Positions 1,251 to 22,219 of a DNA stretch of 23,817 nt are shown here, piece after piece. This stretch comes from a virus. Below the pieces are notes generated by a model. That model was not told the DNA's origin. It saw nothing but the letters and a program-made list of their open reading frames with translations, and ran no database searches. Within the stretch, counting starts at the first letter, position 1, and every line of letters begins with the position of its first letter. The stretch lies in IMG/VR virus record IMGVR_UViG_3300017757_000162, positions 1 through 23,817 of that record; one strand, 5' to 3'. The position numbers were made by a program, and so were the translations under genes.

Positions 1251-1503
1251 AATCATCTAGTAATGCCTCAGCTTCAGCTTCTGTGTAACCCGCCGCCATT
1301 AGCTCATCAATTTCAAATTGCCGCTCTTCCTTGATTGGCAAGTACGTTGCATTGCTTAGACGTTTAAACGCAAAAGGAATGAAATCTGGTTGATAAGTCA
1401 GATCATAAATTCCTAGTTGAGGAACGGGTTCTAGTGAGCCATACCGTTGAATCAAATCTTCAGTTTGAATGGCTTGGCCGGTGGTGCTGTTGAAATACAT
1501 CAT
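1249..1503 (-). CDS. Small protein of unknown function, last gene of the virion operon
   Basis: An 84-residue acidic protein that I do not recognise. It starts with two Met codons (1503 or 1500) and ends with a Glu/Ala-rich helix, AGYTEAEAEALLDD. The middle is rich in Pro and aromatic residues (LEPVPQLGIYDLTYQPDF). Its ATG overlaps the TGA stop of the large fibre gene by one base, so it is probably translated by coupling with it. Small genes right after a fibre gene often encode fibre-assembly chaperones, but no such motif is visible, so that is only a positional suggestion. It ends at the bidirectional terminator. Confidence 0.75.
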   Translation of the reverse strand: MMYFNSTTGQAIQTEDLIQRYGSLEPVPQLGIYDLTYQPDFIPFAFKRLSNATYLPIKEERQFEIDELMAAGYTEAEAEALLDD

Positions 1504-4361
1504 CAGGCGTTACCTGTTCTAAACGTGTTATAGAGGGATTCGACAGGATCAGCATTATCGGCGGAATCATATCTAACCTTGACCTGATAAAAAGTGTTAG
1601 CCGTCAGCGTCGGATTCCCCCAAGGGGTAGCGCCGTCTTGGCTCGCGTTTGCTGCTGAATCACTGTATTGACCAACAACAGTCCAGGGCCCAGAAGCACT
1701 ATTACTCGATTCAAGTGTCCAGTAACGTCTGGCCAAAGTGACATTGACCCCTGTCACAGGTGTACTGCCACCATTCATAGAAGTGAAAACAATACTTGAA
1801 GGTGAGGGGCCTGCCCTTGTAATCGTTGCACCTTCTGCATATAAGCCAGTTCTCCAACCACCAGTTCCGGTGGGGGTATCGACAGTAAGAGTATTTCCAG
1901 ATTGGCTTGTAACGTTATTGGATACTGCATTTAATGTTGGGCCGGTAAGAATTGAACCTGTTTCAAATGAACTGCCAGCTACATCTACTGTCTTTGCTGA
2001 TACATCAGCATCTTCTACAAGAGTTCCGCTTGCTGGAAGGCCACCGGCAGTGGCACCTTGTTTGATAGCAACATAGAGATATTTTTGGTTGCCAGAATTA
2101 ACATCAGAGTTGGCGTCGGCAGTAATAGTGAAACCGGTAGAGGTTGCACTTAATTTTCTGCCGCCTCCAGTGTTGGTGCTATCAGCGAAAAGAGCTGTGA
2201 TGTCGCCGCTTGCTGAAGTCGTTAGGCCCCTTGCGCTGTCGAAGATGTTCCAACTACCTGTACTATCTGCGTTTTTGATCATCACCCACCCAGGCTGGAA
2301 GCCAACGTTTACGGCGGTGGTCCCATTATTACCGATGTAGCTACCACACTTAACGCTAGGTCCAGTAAGAGCGAATAGATAAGCGATATAATTTGAACCA
2401 CTGCGATTCAAGTTGAGGGTATTATTGACCATAAACGTTGTGTCAGTTTTATCCCATAATTGGAAGGGGGTGGATGACTCACCGCTACTATCATTCAGCC
2501 TAATGAAATAGGTATTGGGTATATTTTGGTGCCAGGTGTACCACTCATCTGTATCATCGAACTCCTTAGTAATTATTAAGCCCGGCGCTGTTCCAAGTTG
2601 ATGGTTCAAAGTTTTAGTTTGATTGCCATCCCCGATCCATGAAACGATATCCATGAAGGATGGTGCTGCTCTGAAGTTCCAGGCTATAAATGATTGACTG
2701 CCGCCGCTAACGTTACCTTCACTCCCAATAGTAAAACCGCTGTTTGTAAACGCTGTGAGCGAATTTGTGTAGTCTAATTGCCCAGACTGCGAATTACTGC
2801 GTAAAGTTTGCTGAACACCGCGAACGGTGTCGTAGATCATGTGATCAACAGAAGCACTTCTGGATTTGATCCACACCAGAGACTTTGTCGTATTGTCGAT
2901 GCCGGTGTTAACTGTTTGCCCTGTATTGTTCCCCGTATATACCGTGGGGCTGAATGCAGCAGTTTGTGTTGTACTACCTGGGGCCGTAACAGTATCACCA
3001 GCCTTCAAAAATTGAAGGTCTTGCGAGTTAGTAAGGGTTAATTCATTGAAGTCAGGAGTTGCGGCACCTTTACGAATGGCGACGTAGATATAATTAGCAC
3101 CACTTGAACTCATAGCATAGCCAGCTCTGAATGATGTACTATCTAGTCTGTAATACTGATTATTATTCTCAGCATCAGATTTGTTTGCCCACAACGAATT
3201 GTTATAACTTCCTGATGCAGTTTTTCTTTCGCTGTCTGAAATGTGCCAATTTTCAGAAGAATCTGTGCGCTTCGTTAATAACCAGCCAATTTCAAAACCA
3301 ACTTCTACGTTTAAAGTACCGCCAGTACCCGTATAGCTTCCGCACTTAATATTGGTATCATCACTGGCAAATAGATAGGCGACATAGTTGTGCCCGTTAT
3401 AATTTGTTATCGACTGGCCACCCCCACCTAGTTCAGCATAAGTGTCCGTCACAGCATTGACAAACGGACTATAACCAAAATCGTCCATGTTGTTCAGCAT
3501 CCCACCCATCGAAACGCTGTGGTGATAGACAGCCCAATCAGCAATGTTTGAATAGTTTTTTATGAGCACAAACGCCGGTATTGCTGCAAGTCCGTGGTCA
3601 AATCTTCGGTTTGTTGTCCCATCTCCTACATAGGTAACAATATCCAGGAAGCCTGGGGATTGTTTAAAATTATAAGAAATGTATGATTGACCAGCTTTAT
3701 TTACTGCGTAATCGGTGCCAATTACAATGCCGTTAGAAGTAAAACTAGACACACGTTGAGATGCCTCCATTTGGTTGGTATTAGAGTTTGTTAGAAGGTT
3801 TTGGTTGTTTCCCCTACCTGTATCTAAAATATGATGGCTATCACTCCAGGACACGCCTTTTACCCAAGTCAAGCCACCTGCAGTTAAGTCTATTCCTGTG
3901 TTGATTGTTCTATTAGAACCACCATTGCCCCCGTACATCATCGCAACAAACAAATCTTCGCCTGTGACAGCAGTTACATTGGTGACAGCACTTGTAACAG
4001 GAACTTTTACATCACCGTTTGCATCTACCATGCGAACAGGTCCGATGATATTAGATAATTCGGTATTATCCGTAAAAGTAAGAACAGCACCAGATTTGCC
4101 AGTAATTAGTGAGGACAATGGCTCATAAGATTGTCCAGCGTTTAACCCTGCGCCATTTAGTGGGGTCAAGACAGCAACGGGGGTATCAAAATAACCACTC
4201 GGCCCGGTTACATCCTCGGCTTTTACCTTGTAGTTTGTGCCGCCTCTTTCAACAACGAAGAGGTCTGAATCCTGAAGAGTGCTCATTTGATCGTACGAAA
4301 GTTTGTAGTTAGTGCCGTTGCGCTCGACCACAAATAGGTCGGTGTTTGATAAATCACTCAT
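1503..4361 (-). CDS. Large tail fibre / receptor-binding type protein with six internal repeats
   Basis: A 952-residue protein with a layered architecture. Residues 1-50 contain the motif DLFVVERxGTNYK twice (8-20 and 33-45), a likely attachment segment. Residues about 138-432 and 474-769 are two copies of one block. Each block holds three related units of about 95 residues, marked by a Gly-rich turn, a P/G-x-x-x-x-IK strand, a Trp-x-x-x-x/His segment and an aromatic-rich closing strand ending near YVAYLFA or YLYVAIRKG. Residues about 860-950 resemble a fibronectin type III-like beta-sandwich (WTLESSNSASGPWTVVG). No signal peptide or catalytic motif is seen. The repeat style matches lectin-like fibre domains I associate with cyanophages and other aquatic phages. 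Its start overlaps the preceding fibre gene by 4 bp. A receptor-binding role is inferred from size, repeats and position. Confidence 0.8.
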   Translation of the reverse strand: MSDLSNTDLFVVERNGTNYKLSYDQMSTLQDSDLFVVERGGTNYKVKAEDVTGPSGYFDTPVAVLTPLNGAGLNAGQSYEPLSSLITGKSGAVLTFTDNTELSNIIGPVRMVDANGDVKVPVTSAVTNVTAVTGEDLFVAMMYGGNGGSNRTINTGIDLTAGGLTWVKGVSWSDSHHILDTGRGNNQNLLTNSNTNQMEASQRVSSFTSNGIVIGTDYAVNKAGQSYISYNFKQSPGFLDIVTYVGDGTTNRRFDHGLAAIPAFVLIKNYSNIADWAVYHHSVSMGGMLNNMDDFGYSPFVNAVTDTYAELGGGGQSITNYNGHNYVAYLFASDDTNIKCGSYTGTGGTLNVEVGFEIGWLLTKRTDSSENWHISDSERKTASGSYNNSLWANKSDAENNNQYYRLDSTSFRAGYAMSSSGANYIYVAIRKGAATPDFNELTLTNSQDLQFLKAGDTVTAPGSTTQTAAFSPTVYTGNNTGQTVNTGIDNTTKSLVWIKSRSASVDHMIYDTVRGVQQTLRSNSQSGQLDYTNSLTAFTNSGFTIGSEGNVSGGSQSFIAWNFRAAPSFMDIVSWIGDGNQTKTLNHQLGTAPGLIITKEFDDTDEWYTWHQNIPNTYFIRLNDSSGESSTPFQLWDKTDTTFMVNNTLNLNRSGSNYIAYLFALTGPSVKCGSYIGNNGTTAVNVGFQPGWVMIKNADSTGSWNIFDSARGLTTSASGDITALFADSTNTGGGRKLSATSTGFTITADANSDVNSGNQKYLYVAIKQGATAGGLPASGTLVEDADVSAKTVDVAGSSFETGSILTGPTLNAVSNNVTSQSGNTLTVDTPTGTGGWRTGLYAEGATITRAGPSPSSIVFTSMNGGSTPVTGVNVTLARRYWTLESSNSASGPWTVVGQYSDSAANASQDGATPWGNPTLTANTFYQVKVRYDSADNADPVESLYNTFRTGNA

Positions 4362-5029
4362 GGCAATAAGGGCAGAGCGGGGATATTCAATGAGTTATCT
4401 GGCAGCGTCCCTGGCATCCAATGATTCATAGATGAGTGCCAAACCAGATATTGACCATCTGTAGGGACATGACCTGAGCTAGCCGTCTCAACATCTGTTA
4501 AATCATTTATTGACAACGAAACGGTTCCGGTTTGGCCATTGACAGAAAGAACCGCTGAAGCAGGAACATCAGCCGACGTAATGTAACCAGCGTCGTTGTT
4601 TAATTCAGATACATCGTCGCCAGCCTGCAGGGCTGAATCAGCTTTTGTGCCTTGTGATGCAGTTGCGGCGCCAACATTACTGGCCGCTAGAACAACAGTC
4701 CCGGTGAGGCCATTAACTGATGACACTGGTACGGCAGGAATATCAGCCGACGTAATATATCCAGCATCGTTATTTAATGTTGATACGTCGTCACCTGCTG
4801 CCAATGCACTGACATCAGTGGCATTAAGGACAACTACACCAACTTTGCCGTTTACAGATTCAACAGCACTGCCTGGGCCAATGCTGATGATGTTGTCTGC
4901 ACTGTCTTTAAAAAACAATTTGGGCGAATTGACGTGTGCGCCAACAGCAACCTCACCAATTTCTAAATCCGCTGGTAGTGGGATTTTGTCCTGTACTACC
5001 GAGTTTTTAAGCTTGATCCGTGTTGGCAT
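4358..5029 (-). CDS. Fibre-like structural protein with SVNG-repeat modules
   Basis: A 223-residue protein. The N-terminus carries a fibre attachment motif (PADLEIGEVAVG at 19-30, then KLFFKD). Three SVNGxxGxVxL repeats follow at about 58, 103 and 162, and two GDDVSxLNNDAGYITSAD segments at about 79 and 138. The C-terminus has DLTDVETASSGHVPTDGQYLVWH, a degenerate copy of the Trp module shared with five other proteins here. SVNG repeats of this sort are common in phage fibres and probably make trimeric beta stalks. The gene is preceded by a 55-bp gap holding a palindromic element and overlaps the next gene by 4 bp (ATGA). No clear ribosome binding site precedes the ATG. Confidence 0.78.
   Translation of the reverse strand: MPTRIKLKNSVVQDKIPLPADLEIGEVAVGAHVNSPKLFFKDSADNIISIGPGSAVESVNGKVGVVVLNATDVSALAAGDDVSTLNNDAGYITSADIPAVPVSSVNGLTGTVVLAASNVGAATASQGTKADSALQAGDDVSELNNDAGYITSADVPASAVLSVNGQTGTVSLSINDLTDVETASSGHVPTDGQYLVWHSSMNHWMPGTLPDNSLNIPALPLLP
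4568..4778 (-). repeat. Pair of 37-bp direct repeats inside a fibre gene (4568-4604, 4742-4778)
   Basis: The two 37-bp stretches match at 33 of 37 positions and encode the two LNNDAGYITSAD segments of the 223-residue fibre protein. The high nucleotide identity suggests a fairly recent internal duplication of a module about 174 bp long. Confidence 0.8.
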
Positions 5030-5084: not shown

Positions 5085-6611
5085 CTAATAACTGCCCCCA
5101 TTTAAAACAGAGGTGTTGTTCCATACCCCGTTGGAGGCGTCGTATTGCAACCGGTCTTCTGGGACTAGATTGGTCAAACTTACGTCTAAAAGTCCAGAAA
5201 GATAACCTGAACCACCCCCGCCAGAACTACCGACTGAAATATGTGTGTAACCCTGCAATTCATTAATACATAGCAACCAATCCCCAGAGACAAAAGAAAC
5301 AGTAGAGACAAAATTCTGAGGCACGTTATTTCCATCATTGTTACAAATTAGATACAAGCCAGACAAATCATCGGACGGTGAAGGGATTAACTGACCAACA
5401 ACTAAGCCCGCACTAACGCCTTGATTTGTAAGAACTTCAACGGTTCCGGCTGCTGCATCAAACACGCCACCCCATCTGAGGTTGTTGGCTTGCAAAGCAC
5501 CAAAGCCAACAGGGCTCCACTGAGTACCTGAAGAACCCCGACCATATACGCGCAATTGTGCTGTAGATGGTTGAAACCACAGCATCCCCAAGAAATAATC
5601 GTCGGAAGCGCCGGGGGATTCTTCCTGCATTAAACAGGTGCCGTAATCTGCCAATTTTTTGGCAAGGATTGAGGCGTCAGCCAATCGCCCTGTTGGAAAT
5701 TGACCAGAAATTATTTTGCTGGCGTCTAAATCAGGGACTTGATCAGGTATCAGAATGCTGCTCCCGGCTGTTACCAACCCAAAAGCATCAACATCAACTG
5801 AGGCCAAACCAGAAACAGCACCGCCAACAATCAAGCGATGAGTCAATGACCCGTCAGCCGAAACTAGCAGCGGTCCAGTGCCAGAATTTGGAATCTTGAC
5901 AGCGCCTAGATCAGTCGCAGACGCGACAGGGAGATCAGTCCCAACAAGGGCGGTCGCATTGATGATGTGCCCGTGTTCGTCATAGGTAAAACCCGAAACA
6001 CCGCCTGGCGTAATCGAATTTGAATGGGTCAGCGCTCCCGTAGCGCTAACAGATAAACCGCTACCCGTTGGGACACTGACAGCACCAATCTGGCTTTCAG
6101 TGGCTGGTGGCAAATCACCTGCTGACAACGCAATGTCGCCAGTGATTAATCCTTGTTCATTCCAAATAATTCCATTGCGCTGCCCCGCAATAATTGCGTT
6201 TGCAATTCCAATATTTGCAGAATCAATATCTATGCCGCGACCAACCGCTGTGGAAGAGACACGGTCAGCGGTGATAGATCCAACAACAATTGAATCCCCA
6301 TTAACAAAAGATATTTTTGGGCCGGTTATTGAAGCATCAGCTAGTTTACTTGTGACAACGCAATTATCAGCGAGTTCGACATTAGTTATGGAGCCAGCGG
6401 CTGGAGCAACTGGGAACGTGTAGCCCGTCCAGTTGATCTTGTTTGGGTCAATGGTGCCATTGGCTAGGAGGTTAATACCTGCAGAGACAAGGGCATCAGA
6501 TCGAACTTTTTTAGTCTCTAGCAATGAAACGTCGGCAATCGCCAAAACGTCATCTGCCTGCAACTGCGCTTCACTAAGTAGCGGCAGATTGCTGATTTCG
6601 GTGTCTGGCAT
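5085..6611 (-). CDS. Tail fibre / stalk protein
   Basis: A 508-residue beta-rich protein. Residues about 90-130 hold the pattern SITNVELADNCVVTSKLADASITG, found in many fibre stalks. Residues about 165-290 hold repeats of DLPxAxxxxxGAVxxPxxG followed by GALTH or GSLTH, which read like triple-beta-helix repeats. The last 45 residues start with a Gly-rich hinge (GGGGSGY) and then LSGLLDV...LQYD...VW...SVLNGGSY, the C-terminal Trp module that recurs in the proteins encoded at 18244-20857. There are no enzymatic motifs. It lies directly downstream of two tube-like genes and upstream of two other fibre genes, fitting a tail-tip fibre. The last residues GGSY before TAG define the end of the module. 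Confidence 0.8.
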   Translation of the reverse strand: MPDTEISNLPLLSEAQLQADDVLAIADVSLLETKKVRSDALVSAGINLLANGTIDPNKINWTGYTFPVAPAAGSITNVELADNCVVTSKLADASITGPKISFVNGDSIVVGSITADRVSSTAVGRGIDIDSANIGIANAIIAGQRNGIIWNEQGLITGDIALSAGDLPPATESQIGAVSVPTGSGLSVSATGALTHSNSITPGGVSGFTYDEHGHIINATALVGTDLPVASATDLGAVKIPNSGTGPLLVSADGSLTHRLIVGGAVSGLASVDVDAFGLVTAGSSILIPDQVPDLDASKIISGQFPTGRLADASILAKKLADYGTCLMQEESPGASDDYFLGMLWFQPSTAQLRVYGRGSSGTQWSPVGFGALQANNLRWGGVFDAAAGTVEVLTNQGVSAGLVVGQLIPSPSDDLSGLYLICNNDGNNVPQNFVSTVSFVSGDWLLCINELQGYTHISVGSSGGGGSGYLSGLLDVSLTNLVPEDRLQYDASNGVWNNTSVLNGGSY

Positions 6612-7508: not shown

Positions 7509-7958
7509 TCAAAAGCTCCACTCGAATGGTGCGCCATGGACTTGGAAACTTACATCGGCACTAACCACTTCGCCTACGCTGCAAGTCATTGAAAAAGACG
7601 TTACATAAGCATAAATCCCTATAGCGCCGCCACCGTCAACAGCTAGACGAATTTTGCATAACTCAGGCTGTGCATTAGCCCCGTAACTATCAGAGTCAAA
7701 GCTGTTGTTGCCCGTCTTAATTAGCGGACCGCCTACACGTTCAACGTTGCTGACAGTTTCGGAGTAATACAGCAACGAAGCTTGCCCGCTAGCTGTACGA
7801 AGGCCATTGAGAAGAGTGGCATCGGTGTCTTGCAAGCTTGTTGTATCAAGCGTTTGCTGTTGTGTTGAATAACTCCAATTCTTCAGCCTTCCAACCTTCA
7901 CAGGTGTGCCAGACGCTGTGGAAATTTCCATGACGCCATGTTGCCCTGAAAAATACAT
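7509..7958 (-). CDS. Tail tube-like protein (short paralogue)
   Basis: A 149-residue protein with a compact tube-subunit pattern: VGRLKNWSYSTQQQTLDTTSLQD (23-45), then GLRTASGQASLLYYSE and a final strand VSADVSFQVHGAPFEW. The LDTT(S/T)L motif is identical in kind to that of the major tail protein at 17380-18168. It lacks the inserted domain of that protein, and its size is typical of minimal tube folds. It precedes the 286-residue relative by 6 bp, so the two may form a distal tube or tip ring together. A GGAG sequence about 11 bp upstream of the ATG could be the ribosome binding site. Confidence 0.65.
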   Translation of the reverse strand: MYFSGQHGVMEISTASGTPVKVGRLKNWSYSTQQQTLDTTSLQDTDATLLNGLRTASGQASLLYYSETVSNVERVGGPLIKTGNNSFDSDSYGANAQPELCKIRLAVDGGGAIGIYAYVTSFSMTCSVGEVVSADVSFQVHGAPFEWSF

Positions 7959-17379: not shown

Positions 17380-18168
17380 TCACACTAACGCTGTACTAAA
17401 CAGTTGTTTGACGTTTTGAACGCTAAAGGTGACTTCTCCCTGTTGGGGATCATCAGGGTTTACGTCCAGATTGACGCCGGTCAAGGTGATATCACCCTCA
17501 ATAAAGGATGATTTCGCCAAGTCAGGGGCTGGAGTAGACGCACCATCAGAAATGGTGTTGTTAAAAAGCCGAACGCGAGCGCCCCCTTGGTCCTTCAACA
17601 TCACATTTGCAAGCATTCTTTGGCCAATGCTTTGTGCATTGTCAGAGAAAAATAGCGTGATAGTTCCGGTGGCTGACGCATAACCTGCCTGGGTCGAACG
17701 GAAGGTGGCAAATTTGCCCCCACCTGCACCAACACCGCATGGAAGCGTTGTTGTGTCTAATTCTTCCCGAGAGATCTCAATCGAAAACGATTGCACATCA
17801 CAAACTGCGCCGAACGGATCAAACGACACATTTACATGCCCCGCAGAATCAGCAGAACCGGTTCCGCCGTCACCGTTCAGCGTTACTGCAGTACCGCCAA
17901 TTGTTGCCGACACCTGAATGGTTACAGACGTAGCAACAACGACGTAATACTGAGTCCCAGCGACTAGCGCCGTATCCAACGACCCACCGCCTTCAACTGA
18001 AAAGACGACAGGATCACCAACCTCAAAATCATTCCCAGCGGGGACCGTGATTGCAGTCCCTGCAGGGAAATCAACAAAATCCTGAAGACAGAATTCAGTT
18101 CCCGCTGGTGTGAAATACACCGAACCGCTCTGGCCAGTTAAGGCGCTAGAGCTACAAGCAATGGCCAC
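17380..18168 (-). CDS. Major tail protein (tail tube subunit) with an inserted domain
   Basis: A 262-residue tube subunit. The tube-fold signature is split: an N-terminal strand GQSGSVYFTPAGTEF (12-26), then CDVQSFSIEISREELDTTTLPCG (123-145), a SATGTITLFFSDN strand (165-177) and a C-terminal VTFSVQNVKQ. Between them, residues about 30-117 form an extra beta-rich domain with AGTQYYVVVAT and VSATIGGTAVTL. I know this motif as a module displayed on several phage structural proteins. The start is GTG at 18168, supported by GAGG six bases upstream. The gene is followed by a strong terminator. Position after the tail terminator block and before the chaperones fits a tube gene. Confidence 0.85.
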   Translation of the reverse strand: MAIACSSSALTGQSGSVYFTPAGTEFCLQDFVDFPAGTAITVPAGNDFEVGDPVVFSVEGGGSLDTALVAGTQYYVVVATSVTIQVSATIGGTAVTLNGDGGTGSADSAGHVNVSFDPFGAVCDVQSFSIEISREELDTTTLPCGVGAGGGKFATFRSTQAGYASATGTITLFFSDNAQSIGQRMLANVMLKDQGGARVRLFNNTISDGASTPAPDLAKSSFIEGDITLTGVNLDVNPDDPQQGEVTFSVQNVKQLFSTALV

Positions 18169-18243: not shown

Positions 18244-19233
18244 TTAATAAGCTCCACCATCCAAAGAAGACGCTGAAACCCAGGCCGAACCATCCCACGA
18301 CAAAACATCGCCAACGGACTTTGAGCCAGCGCTTACATCGCTCAAATTGTTGAGGCCAAGGCTGACAACACCAACTTGACTATTGACGCTTTGCACTGGG
18401 GCCGCCGGAACCGTTGCGGTTGTCAGATAGCCCGCATCGTTGTTCAGATCACTGACATCGTCGCCAGGCTGAACCGCTGTCCCAATGGCCGTCTTTTGTG
18501 AGGCCGTAACGTATTTATTTGTCGAACCTTCCGATACGTCATTTGTTGACAGGACGACCGCGCCAGTTTTCGTGTTGACGCTTTGAACCGGGGCGCCCGC
18601 TGACGTGATGTAGTTGGAATTATTCGTCAGTTCACTGATGTTGTCGCCGCTTGCCAAAGCACCAACGTCACCAGCACCAAGAACAACCGCACCAGACTGG
18701 CTATTAACCGATACAACGGCTGACGATGGGTAGGTCAGCTCTTGCCAGTCCGAAAGCGAGCTTCCACCCGTCTGGATCAAAACAAATGTCGTGCTGGTGT
18801 CAGTCCGGTTACACCAGTCCCCAGCTTGACCCGAAAGGGCCAGCATTGCCGCTTGACTTGCGACTGCCCCTAAATATTGGGTAATAGCAATCGATGGAAT
18901 TTGACTTGACGGCACTTTGCCGTTGACCAAATCAGCCTTTGCATCCAACGCCGTTTGGGTATCCGTTGAAATCGGCTTTGCTAAGTCGCTGGTGTTATCG
19001 ACGTTGGCCAGGCCAACATCTGTCTTGTCGAGCGTGACTGTGCCAATCCGGCCATTCACCGAGGTTTCACCAACCTGACCCACACCGCCTAATTGGCGGA
19101 CAACACCATCAGCGTCCTTGATATAAATGGCTGGGCTTTGGCCGTTTGTATTGAGGGCAATCTCGCCATCTAAAAGATCCGAAGGTTGCGGCGCCTTGGA
19201 TTGTGTGCTCGAACGTTTTTGTTGTTGTCTCAT
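18244..19233 (-). CDS. Fibre-like protein with SVN-repeat modules, encoded between neck and tube genes
   Basis: A 329-residue protein. The N-terminus has a fibre attachment motif (PSDLLDGEIALN at 17-28, then AIYIKD). Four SVNxxxGxVxL repeats lie at about 58, 175, 218 and 282, and GDxxSxLxNxxxYxT segments at about 196 and 257. A separate unit, WCNRTDTSTTFVLIQ followed by DWQELTYP (140-169), resembles a small fibre domain seen in other phage stalks. The C-terminus LSDV...GDVLSWDGSAWVSASSLDGGAY is the shared Trp module. It follows the 250-residue relative by 2 bp. Encoding position among neck and tube genes is unusual for a tip fibre and suggests a neck or tube decoration; that is inference. Confidence 0.75.
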   Translation of the reverse strand: MRQQQKRSSTQSKAPQPSDLLDGEIALNTNGQSPAIYIKDADGVVRQLGGVGQVGETSVNGRIGTVTLDKTDVGLANVDNTSDLAKPISTDTQTALDAKADLVNGKVPSSQIPSIAITQYLGAVASQAAMLALSGQAGDWCNRTDTSTTFVLIQTGGSSLSDWQELTYPSSAVVSVNSQSGAVVLGAGDVGALASGDNISELTNNSNYITSAGAPVQSVNTKTGAVVLSTNDVSEGSTNKYVTASQKTAIGTAVQPGDDVSDLNNDAGYLTTATVPAAPVQSVNSQVGVVSLGLNNLSDVSAGSKSVGDVLSWDGSAWVSASSLDGGAY

Positions 19234-19235
19234 TT

Positions 19236-19988
19236 TTAGTAGCTCCCTGAATCAATAGCGGTTGAGATTTTGTAAGCGCCTGTGGCGGTCTCCCCAGTCA
19301 CTGACGTGTCACGGACAAAGAAACCGCCCTGATTAACACCCCCAACAACAGTCGGAGGCGTTGACACGTTCAGCAGTTCACCCAGCAACGTCGCGCCGCC
19401 GCCAGTAGGTGACTTCAGCCATATCGTTCCGTTCCAGGTGTAACTACCAGGGCCAACCTGGGGACTGGTGTCAGGGTTGCCGCTATCGGTTACAACGCAA
19501 CTATCGCCTGTGTTTAGATCACTCGTGCCGGTGATTATGCCGTCTGCAATTAGACCAGCATTGAGGTCTGACGAAGTTGTGCCAGATGAACCGATATTGG
19601 AATTATCGTTAGCAATCGAATAAACCGAAATGCTGCCTGGCGTCTTGGGGATATACGCGCCAGCGCCACCATTAGCGCCAATGTCCCACGTCAATACCTG
19701 ACCCGACGAAGGTGCCGCCGGAGGGCTAATTAACGTAGTCGGATTAGGAATAAAGTCGCCTTCAATTAATGCCGCAACATCAGAGGCTTTAAGCGGAAAC
19801 TCGATCCACCCTTTGCCATTTGTTGGCGCAGGTGTGGAGGTCGAGCCATTTATCAACGTCTTGGAATTTGACCCGTTTCCAAGGAAGCCGACTGTGTCTG
19901 CCAAGTTGTAAGCCAACTGGCCTGGCTCTAGGTCGCCTGGCTTAGATCCAGCCGAAACGTTCCTAAGTTGCTGCTGAACAATTGCCAT
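19236..19988 (-). CDS. Fibre-like / virion decoration protein, encoded near the neck genes
   Basis: A 250-residue protein starting with the same kind of attachment motif (KPGDLEPGQLAYNLADT at 16-32), followed by a Gly/Ser/Thr-rich beta region. A unit GDSCVVTDSGNPDT...YTWNGTIWLKS (about 160-193) is related in style to the WCNRTD unit of the next gene. The end LLGELLNVS...YKISTAIDSGSY is a diverged copy of the shared C-terminal module. Ribosome binding site AGGT lies seven bases before the ATG. No enzymatic motif is present. It probably makes trimeric fibres or plaques on the virion, with location inferred only from gene order. Confidence 0.7.
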   Translation of the reverse strand: MAIVQQQLRNVSAGSKPGDLEPGQLAYNLADTVGFLGNGSNSKTLINGSTSTPAPTNGKGWIEFPLKASDVAALIEGDFIPNPTTLISPPAAPSSGQVLTWDIGANGGAGAYIPKTPGSISVYSIANDNSNIGSSGTTSSDLNAGLIADGIITGTSDLNTGDSCVVTDSGNPDTSPQVGPGSYTWNGTIWLKSPTGGGATLLGELLNVSTPPTVVGGVNQGGFFVRDTSVTGETATGAYKISTAIDSGSY

Positions 19989-20030
19989 CAGGCGACCTAT
20001 AAATAACTACTCAATTTTAGGAGCACTCAA

Positions 20031-20270
20031 TTACACAAAAGTTCCAGAGTCCAGCACGCTCTCAGGCGTCCAATTGCTGCCATCCCAGCCAAGCAAATTT
20101 CTTGCATCTGGTGGCGTTGTACTTGTATCTACGTCACCCATTTGATCAATTGAATAGTCAGCTTTTGCCGCTATGACTGCGCCAGTGCGGCCAAAAACGC
20201 TGTCAACATTACCGGCTGCGTTTCGAGTTGCGCCTGCGACTGGCAATCCGCCTTGTGTTGGGTAAGTCAT
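20031..20270 (-). CDS. 79-residue stand-alone copy of the C-terminal virion module
   Basis: Residues 22-79 (DSVFGRTGAV, DYSIDQMGDVD, LLGWDGSNWTPESVLDSGTF) align along their whole length with residues 142-195 of the tail terminator protein encoded just upstream. At the DNA level 20141-20160 and 20371-20390 match at 18 of 20 bases. The first 20 residues are a short Gly/Ala-rich leader. The ATG overlaps the stop of the preceding gene by one base. It looks like a tandem duplication of the fused module that became a separate gene. The VFGRTGAV motif is widespread in phage fibres. Role: probably a small decoration or adaptor at the neck, unproven. Confidence 0.7.
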   Translation of the reverse strand: MTYPTQGGLPVAGATRNAAGNVDSVFGRTGAVIAAKADYSIDQMGDVDTSTTPPDARNLLGWDGSNWTPESVLDSGTFV

Positions 20271-20857
20271 TAGAAATCCTCCGAATCAACGCTAGCGGCT
20301 GGAATCCATTGCGTTCCATCCCATTCCATTACCTCACCAGGCGCAGGCGTTGCCGAGCTGACATCTGCCATCTGATCAATTGAATAATCACCTTCTTGGC
20401 TGTTGACATTGCCTGTCCGCCCATAAACAGAACTCACAGCGCTGCCCCCCGAAATCCTTACGTTAAATGGGGCGCTGATATTACTAAGGGCTAACGGATC
20501 ATCTCCCGACAAGACCTGGACAGGGCCTAGGACTTCCCCAACGCTGAACTCATTGGTTTTCATCTGATCCAATAGCGCCATCCCCGTAAAATCCAACTCT
20601 TCAATTCGGCGCATGCCATTACCTTTCGGGCTATAAATCGAAAGCTGGATGTTTCCCCGTATCGCTTCGATCCCGTTGGTTTCGAGCCTCAGTACAGGAA
20701 GATAAAAATTGACATAACTAATCGATAGCTCTACATATTCGGTGGCAGGCGGTTCCCCACCAACGTTGTCGAATACAACCGGAACAGGTGGCGTTAACGC
20801 TGAAAAGGCATTGATCGTCCTGGTTTCAACTAAGGCGCGGATCTGTTGGAAGCTCAT
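20270..20857 (-). CDS. Tail terminator protein (gpU / DUF4128-like) with a C-terminal fibre module
   Basis: A 195-residue protein. Residues 1-133 match the tail-terminator pattern: FQQIRALVETRTINAF, then YVELSISYVNF, GNIQLSIYSPKGNGMRRIEELD and a late strand PFNVRISGGS. These proteins form a hexamer capping the tube beneath the neck. Family members usually end here. Residues about 139-195 add a module, SSVYGRTGNV, DYSIDQMADV, EVMEWDGTQWIPAASVDSEDF, shared with the next gene and with fibre proteins of this window. The ATG overlaps the stop of the gp10-like gene (ATGA). Tail-terminator identity is likely; the role of the extra module is inferred as surface display at the neck. Confidence 0.75.
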   Translation of the reverse strand: MSFQQIRALVETRTINAFSALTPPVPVVFDNVGGEPPATEYVELSISYVNFYLPVLRLETNGIEAIRGNIQLSIYSPKGNGMRRIEELDFTGMALLDQMKTNEFSVGEVLGPVQVLSGDDPLALSNISAPFNVRISGGSAVSSVYGRTGNVNSQEGDYSIDQMADVSSATPAPGEVMEWDGTQWIPAASVDSEDF

Positions 20858-21267
20858 TTCACTTTCCTCAGGAAAAAGTCAAAGGACTTATCAGCGTCCT
20901 TGCCAAGATTGTTGGCGATGGTGGTGAACCAAGCTGCGCCGCCTACGCGGCCGCCTTTCCCGTATTTGGGATCAAATGCCACGCGCTCTGAATAATCCAA
21001 ATTGGAACTAATAAACCAATCACGATCCATCGTTATCCTGCCATCGTATTTGGTGATTGATGGAGTGTTTTTCCCATCCATTTCATCTGGGACGCTTCGG
21101 TCAGGAATACCCGCACCGATAAACCATGAACTAGCCAAACGGCCCGTATCGACTGGCGATGATTTGCTCAGTTTGCCCTGAGTCAAAATCAAAAACCGGG
21201 CAAGGCCTCGGTCCAGCGCTTGATCAATTTCTCGAACAAGTTCAGCGCCTCGAAATTTTTTAGCCAT
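20854..21267 (-). CDS. HK97 gp10 / lambda gpZ-like neck protein
   Basis: A 137-residue protein. The landmark SPVDTGRLASSWFIG (37-51) is the classic HK97 gp10-family motif, preceded by a long N-terminal helix (AELVREIDQALDRGLARFLI). These proteins complete the tail at the head-proximal end. The C-terminal half contains RVAFDPKYGKGGRVGGAAWF and ends basic. It overlaps both neighbours by short start/stop overlaps, as expected in a tightly coupled head-tail joining cassette. Confidence 0.85.
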   Translation of the reverse strand: MAKKFRGAELVREIDQALDRGLARFLILTQGKLSKSSPVDTGRLASSWFIGAGIPDRSVPDEMDGKNTPSITKYDGRITMDRDWFISSNLDYSERVAFDPKYGKGGRVGGAAWFTTIANNLGKDADKSFDFFLRKVK

Positions 21268-21635
21268 TAGTTCGCCCTCGCTGTAAGCGTTGCCGTGTAA
21301 AGCAGGTCGCCAGACGACAGGTCAACGCGAACCACCTTCCATGGCCTGCCTAAGTAATCGAGCCGATCGCGTGTTGTTGGAATTACATTTCCAACCCCGG
21401 CCAAATCAATTACGACCTTGATCTCAATGTCGTTTGATGGCCCGCCGTTGTCTTGGTCTTGAAAAGATGGGAAGACAGCACCGGCAGAAGTAAACGTAGT
21501 TTCAGAAGGCGTTGACGTGCCATCGGAAGGGTCATAAACCGGCTGATCTACGCGGATGTAATTCAAGCCAGTGACCCGGAATTTATCTACCAGGCTTTTG
21601 GCCAGCGGGACAGCAAAGCCATCTTGGTAAGCCAT
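21267..21635 (-). CDS. Head closure / head-tail joining protein
   Basis: A 122-residue beta-rich protein with the end pattern TTRDRLDYLGRPWKVVRVDLSSGDLLYTATLTAR. It resembles head-closure proteins of the SPP1 gp16, lambda gpFII and HK97 gp7 type. The central region FPSFQDQDNGG lies before a strand EIKVVIDLAG. Its place between the adaptor and the gp10-like gene is canonical. The family call relies more on position and fold pattern than on a sharp motif. Confidence 0.65.
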   Translation of the reverse strand: MAYQDGFAVPLAKSLVDKFRVTGLNYIRVDQPVYDPSDGTSTPSETTFTSAGAVFPSFQDQDNGGPSNDIEIKVVIDLAGVGNVIPTTRDRLDYLGRPWKVVRVDLSSGDLLYTATLTARAN

Positions 21636-22219
21636 TAGGACCGCACCCTCAAGATGACCTTGCCGCCTGACGTAGAGCTAAATACGGCATAACAAGAGAC
21701 CATCCCTTTCAACCAAGGGAACATAGAAATTACTTTTGGATCGCTGCAACTGCTGCAGCTTTCCCCAGTAGCGCCCGCTGGAAAAGCAGAGTAATTAACT
21801 TCCAAATCACCAAGTTTTTCTTTACTCGTATAGACCCCAGCGGTATTGGTACTAGGTGCCCCCGGCTGCAGTGCGCTTGGGTTTTGGCTGAGTTGATAAG
21901 CCAGCTCAATTGTTGCCTCAGTAATTGCCTGAGGTATCAACGTGCAGGTTGCCGCGACCCCATCACACGACACACCAGAACGGGGCCACGAAAGAGCCTG
22001 TGGTTTATCTGCATTGTCCGTCGATGGATTGCAGCGTTTGCCCTTCCAGGTCAAAGTTTCAAGCGCCGACGTGGCCCCGATTAACGCAATCTTTTTGGCG
22101 TCAGCAGAAAGAGCCAGCCAAGTGCTTCCCCACCATGAGATCCCTGCGTAGGCGTCTGCATCCGCTTCAGAAACGTAAGAATTTGCCGTACAAGACCCGA
22201 GAGTTGCATTAATAGCCAT
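21635..22219 (-). CDS. Head-tail adaptor protein (DnaT-like / Ad1 type)
   Basis: A 194-residue protein with ANSYVSEADADAYAGISWW (12-30), KKIALIGATSALETLTWKGKR (42-62) and ALSWPRSGV (75-83). These are the landmarks of a family labelled putative DnaT-like domain in databases but placed next to portal and capsid genes in siphoviruses, where it acts as a connector adaptor. There are seven cysteines (10, 63, 85, 92, 155, 158, 176), including a CSSC pair, which is high for a connector protein. The ATG directly follows the TAA of a 45-residue gene. Ring formation beneath the portal is inferred from the family. Confidence 0.75.
   Translation of the reverse strand: MAINATLGSCTANSYVSEADADAYAGISWWGSTWLALSADAKKIALIGATSALETLTWKGKRCNPSTDNADKPQALSWPRSGVSCDGVAATCTLIPQAITEATIELAYQLSQNPSALQPGAPSTNTAGVYTSKEKLGDLEVNYSAFPAGATGESCSSCSDPKVISMFPWLKGMVSCYAVFSSTSGGKVILRVRS

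Follow-up and report, generated by a model that had tools for sequence, protein, structure and literature searches.

Neck fibres are known in a few cultured phages. In the Anabaena myophage A-1(L), a three-gene operon (gp82-gp81-gp80) encodes a chain-like neck fibre, the proximal subunit of which is encoded first; these fibres are mounted on the adaptor gp5, their genes are located far from the connector genes, and the tail is contractile (PMC10966104). Siphophages of lactococci (936 and P335 phages) have an optional accessory fibre at the neck, the neck passage structure, which consists of a single large protein with a BppU-like N-terminus (PMC6669499, PMC4493119) and is encoded far downstream (orf51 in TP901-1), not beside the tube gene. 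In the siphophage R7M, ORF28 occupies the interval between the capsid and adaptor genes, and its product ranks second in abundance among the virion proteins detected by mass spectrometry; whiskers are visible at the head-tail interface by TEM, and the authors propose, by inference, that ORF28 forms them (PMC8265664). The whiskers of T4 (fibritin, wac) are also fibres at the neck. We found no report in the literature of neck fibres built on the tail terminator.

The window analysed here is a stretch of 23,817 nucleotides of viral DNA (IMG/VR record IMGVR_UViG_3300017757_000162). Its structural genes are all located on the minus strand, in the order head-tail adaptor (Ad1; 21635..22219; PHROG 477, E 1.5e-27), head closure (Hc1-like; 21267..21635; PHROG 161, E 1.7e-4), gp10-like tail completion/Neck1 protein (20854..21267; PHROG 169, E 4.5e-8), tail terminator, tail tube (17380..18168; aligned end to end with the S-2L major tail protein at 46% identity), chaperone, tape measure, tip and fibres. 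The structural block of Cyanophage S-2L has the same gene order, and its neck, terminator, tube and chaperone proteins are 20-46% identical to those of the window in alignments, from which we infer that the host is probably cyanobacterial. As described in the first-pass annotation, four genes for proteins of 195, 79, 250 and 329 residues are located between the gp10-like and tube genes. A second contig, L001, contains the same insertion in near-identical sequence. We put the probability at about 0.6 that the products of these genes form a set of neck fibres mounted on the tail terminator.

The 195-residue protein (20270..20857), previously counted among fibre genes additional to the terminator, is itself the tail terminator, with a fibre module of about 60 residues fused at its C-terminus. 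Residues 1-88 match the PHROG 179 tail terminator (E 1.1e-8) and a three-sequence profile retrieved PDB 2L25 (E 9e-8). An AF2 model inferred from 36 aligned terminators was confident in the core and matched 2L25 and the solved terminators of T1, T5 (p142), lambda (gpU) and R4C in Foldseek searches. The gene sits between the Neck1/completion gene and the tube gene. With the boundary set where relatives end, near residue 135, the fused module spans residues 135-195 (DNA about 20273-20455) and was modelled with lower confidence (block means 47-78). In L002, in S-2L and in L011-L013, the closest relatives, the terminator ends at about residue 140-143; the tube gene starts about 30-80 nt further on, and there is neither an extension nor any extra gene. 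Other terminators illustrate two fates of the C-terminus: in the myophage Milano it forms an arm that reaches outward to the sheath (PMC10491603), and in T5 it takes part in subunit contacts (PMC11784142), so that outward exposure of the extension in the window is not assured.

The locus resembles that of A-1(L) in its probable cyanophage context and in encoding several fibre-type proteins, and its gene arrangement would fit a multi-protein fibre encoded by one operon. It differs in the placement of the genes and in the terminator, which has no fused fibre module in A-1(L), and no significant sequence match was obtained between gp80-gp82 and the window proteins. The lactococcal neck passage structure is set apart by size and gene place and likewise has no terminator fusion. 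Unlike the T4 whisker gene, the fibre genes of the window come after the terminator, and none of the four proteins matched a Pfam family above the cut-off, fibritin included.

We aligned the last 62 residues of the proteins and scored each pair against 300 shuffles. The 79-residue protein (20031..20270), which ends in LDSGTFV, is nearly a free copy of the terminator module (z 20.9) to which a terminal tag is added, and the end of the 329-residue protein (18244..19233) resembles both (z 13.4 against the terminator and 8.8 against the 79-residue protein). The end of the 250-residue protein (19236..19988) showed no detectable similarity to these three (z at most 0.3) and has in common with them only its last six residues, IDSGSY. 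Hence, the claim that all four proteins end in a related module stands for three of them, at levels well above chance, and the view of the 250-residue protein as a diverged case was not borne out; its end scored z 3.4 against that of the 508-residue fibre of the tip cluster. The latter protein (5085..6611, minus strand) contains the module (z 5.5 and 5.9 against the 79- and 329-residue proteins) and ends in the tag LNGGSY. Another tip-cluster fibre, of 223 residues (4358..5029, minus strand), has the module at residues 155-209 (z 8.4, 6.5 and 9.6 against the 195-, 79- and 329-residue proteins) but no terminal tag; the modules reported for the two tip proteins were thus recovered in both, and the tag in the larger one only. 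The fibre attachment motif noted earlier in two proteins is present as GEIALN in the 329-residue protein (N-terminal DLLDGEIALN) and as GQLAYN in the 250-residue protein (N-terminal DLEPGQLAYN), with a weaker form, GEVAVG, in the N-terminus of the 223-residue protein (RIKLKNS...GEVAVG).

In other proteins the module, a generic fibre repeat, is mostly internal; what is conserved at the true C-terminus is the short tag. Receptor binding or chaperone recognition, as proposed for this end in the first-pass annotation, is a putative role. In addition to the C-terminal WDG module, the 329-residue protein carries SVNGxxGxV repeats; since its repeats match those of tail fibres and minor tail proteins of hundreds of phages, the description as fibre-type is sound, and ordinary in itself. 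There was also a weak match (E 6e-4) to a solved protein named FtbO (9j1l). The sole match of the 250-residue protein in a sequence search of PDB, a beta-lactamase, was rejected as a chance hit. AF2 yielded no confident fold for the 79-residue module from 29 sequences (mean pLDDT 53), as would be expected if the protein folds only as an oligomer.

To place the terminator extension in context, we surveyed the slot between the terminator and tube genes at 60 loci in which both genes were found, and scored 55 contigs. The sequence beyond the terminator domain amounted to 62 residues in the window and L001, to 17-29 residues in L021, L043, L052, L054 and L057, and to at most 6 residues at all other loci except L069, the long terminator of which is an artefact of a match split over two frames. 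Extensions were present exactly where a fibre-type gene fills the slot. In the five contigs other than the window and L001, the slot genes encode 62-133 residues, start within the end of the terminator gene or shortly behind it and terminate in IDGGTY, INGGTY, IDGGDY, IDGGTF or IDCGPY; the L057 protein contains a repeated 'ITALDGRVTTNEGD' coiled-coil-like shaft that was matched by a tail-needle family. A match of L196 to these small slot genes occurs in a different context and was left out of the count. On a tree built on the neck protein, terminator core, tube and chaperone, the extension and the slot gene changed five times each, and 5/5 independent pairs agreed (sign test p 0.0625, which is the floor for five pairs). 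Both traits were absent from L022 and L026 (sisters of L021), L045 (sister of L043 and L052) and L002 and L014 (sisters of L057). The small slot genes of the five contigs share homology with one another, and some of the changes may therefore be losses, which are no less possible than gains; in either case the extension and the fibre-type slot gene move together. HNH, homing-type and HTH ORFs have also landed in the connector gene block of the relatives (L042:2362-3285; L055:1326-2171; L034:7304-7513; L052:6034-6465).

Fibre-type proteins of many aquatic phages end in the tag [I/L][D/N]GGx[Y/F]-COOH, for which we found no published description in a phage context. When viral contigs were scanned for stretches of DNA that encode IDGGTY directly before a stop codon, at least 120 were returned. 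Among the matches listed, the peptide was in frame in 80/80 inspected, in ORFs of at least 66 residues that were fibre-like by eye, whereas 8 matches to YTGGDI-stop, the peptide in reverse order, came from a full scan, and 2 of them lay in an open frame of 40 residues or more. The tagged proteins belong to many unrelated aquatic phages (contigs L073-L152, for example L100:107-2062), with IDGGTY or close variants at their ends. The S-CRES1 protein gp107 (L072:42040-43185), annotated as fibritin, has two tag-like copies at its end, TIDGGDF and IVDGGNFS.

A profile of the window module identified 33 small ORFs, including two window copies, and the tag or a close variant was present at the end of 33/33. 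A large gene follows directly in 30/33; nearly all of the encoded proteins have IKxKRS...GELAYS at the start and the tag, exact or slightly varied, at the end. As most of these contigs were chosen via IDGGTY, the tag of the large genes is there by selection, which is mostly not so for that of the small genes. The two families, PHROG 13853 (small) and PHROG 15769 (large), are of unknown function and come from aquatic T4-like phages; cultured examples of the pair are found in P-SSM2 (PSSM2_117/118), S-CAM9 and Mosig. In P-SSM2 and S-CAM9, the tagged pair is located beside the gp13/gp14 neck genes, separated from the gp13-type gene by one small gene in P-SSM2 and by none in S-CAM9, where that gene carries a hypothetical annotation and was judged by eye to resemble P-SSM2 gp13. 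The slot of the pair in P-SSM2 corresponds in T4 to gp12 as well as wac, which counts against reading the position as that of whiskers. The 79-residue protein of the window resembles the small PHROG 13853 proteins in having the module and a C-terminal tag and in being encoded directly before a large fibre gene. It differs in that it gave no match to that family at E 0.001, compared with 27/29 aligned members, and in its setting, since the small genes of the cultured T4-like phages are not fused to a siphophage terminator and have none as a neighbour. The 250-residue protein (LRNVSAGSKPGDLEPGQLAYN ... IDSGSY) and the 329-residue protein (QKRSSTQSKAPQPSDLLDGEIALN ... LDGGAY) match the KRS...GELAYS/N pattern loosely, by eye, at their N-termini.

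If the proteins are indeed terminator-anchored neck fibres, the ring of terminators that forms the upper end of the tail would carry up to six C-terminally fused fibre modules at the head-tail junction. The 79-, 250- and 329-residue proteins would then be added to this ring, most likely in the form of trimers. Gene order, by analogy with A-1(L), suggests the sequence terminator, 79, 250, 329 from the neck outward. Besides the tag, the two larger proteins have a GELAYN-type N-terminus and additional repeats or domains, and the C-terminal tag of one protein may be held by the GELAYN-type N-terminal region of the next. Such docking would be the weakest step of the model, and it cannot be the only use of the tag, unless something else is bound there, since the last protein of the chain is tagged as well. 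The set may represent a local version of the two-gene fibre cassette of many aquatic phages, with a probably whisker-like function, such as weak contact with the host surface or support of other fibres. A broader reading, which we consider possible but doubtful, is that the tag serves as a general docking signal of aquatic phage fibres, to which the KRS/GELAY-type N-terminal region of the following protein binds, that chains are interchangeable between siphophages and T4-like myophages, and that a module on a neck ring protein re-addresses the fibre to the neck.

The neck assignment has to be weighed against ordinary tail or tip fibres, the genes of which were inserted here by chance; they would assemble with the tip fibres, and the terminator would have gained the module through accidental recombination and tolerate its presence. 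Fibre genes are freely mobile, the generic module occurs in several copies in P-SS2 proteins, and because the tip cluster has the same modules and tag these do not mark a neck fibre. However, the five co-changes of extension and slot gene include no discordant case, and the extensions of the other contigs consist of a different short sequence accompanied by a slot gene of their own, rather than repeating the same accident. Furthermore, terminators are unextended where the slot holds non-fibre ORFs (HTH-bearing homing-type ORFs in L042 and L055, an HTH ORF in L034). We therefore consider chance insertion unlikely. A different attachment site is suggested by L061, in which a homologue of the 250-residue protein (5450-6214; 57% identical) is located between the major capsid protein and the adaptor, together with a gene for a tagged fibre-type protein of 571 residues, while the terminator is unextended. 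R7M (Alteromonas) is a marine siphophage with a candidate whisker gene between capsid and adaptor (PMC8265664), the interval that houses the homologue in L061. Its ORF28 is a single protein of 1154 residues with neither module, GELA motif nor tag, and its terminator has 140 residues and is unextended. The comparison of L061 with R7M, which favours the neck, is purely positional, as ORF28 has no sequence in common with the window proteins. The fibres of the window might accordingly belong to the head or portal vertex, as a collar attached to the adaptor or portal, much as the A-1(L) fibres are bound to the adaptor gp5 (PMC10966104), and the terminator module would do no more than cap or contact them. 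Since the window genes come after the terminator, with an overlapping start, and the module is on the terminator itself, this seems quite improbable. Of the original proposal that the fibres sit at the neck or along the tube, the terminator fusion, the co-occurrence of extensions and fibre genes and the L061 homologue favour the neck; the tube found no support.

The tag could also be a by-product of the Shine-Dalgarno sequence (GGAGG) of the next gene instead of a protein signal. The terminator ends in VDSEDF (20273..20290, minus strand; codons GTTGATTCGGAGGATTTC), and these codons include GGAGG (20278-20282), which closely precedes the TAATG at which the 79-residue gene starts, overlapping the terminator gene. 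Where a start codon overlaps the tag or lies within 12 nt of it, the first Gly codon is GGA or GGG in 26/33. Away from any start, the peptide stays the same but this codon is GGT or GGC in 39/47, and the tags of the 329-residue protein and of the slot genes of L043, L052, L054, L057 and L021 are about 70-85 nt before the tube start. A ribosome site also leaves the Asp/Asn and the terminal Tyr/Phe unexplained. Since codons, not residues, vary with the proximity of a start, the peptide appears to be kept for the protein, the ribosome site being an added use, and we regard the by-product explanation as very improbable.

Should the terminator-anchored reading hold, the terminator, an ordinary ring of tail assembly, would also serve as a mount for fibres, and the length of its C-terminus would allow siphophages with neck whiskers to be recognised by sequence alone. 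In the genomes of cyanophages and pelagiphages, many genes of multi-gene fibres are annotated as hypothetical; the tag offers a simple way to find such fibres from sequence and makes their joining directly testable by binding assays.

A tube-profile search of bacterial genomes found no relatives. The tip cluster of the window contains a second tail-tube-like protein of 149 residues (7509-7958; PHROG 10528 'major tail protein', E 4.6e-9), encoded far from the tube gene. A fibre-type protein of 952 residues encoded in the window (1503-4361) has DUF7483 domains in two stretches (E 6e-89). Tube-type genes are arranged in tandem pairs in L033 (41-1806) and L060 (2927-4986), where the second gene (324 residues) has an internal stretch that was unmatched by the tube profile.
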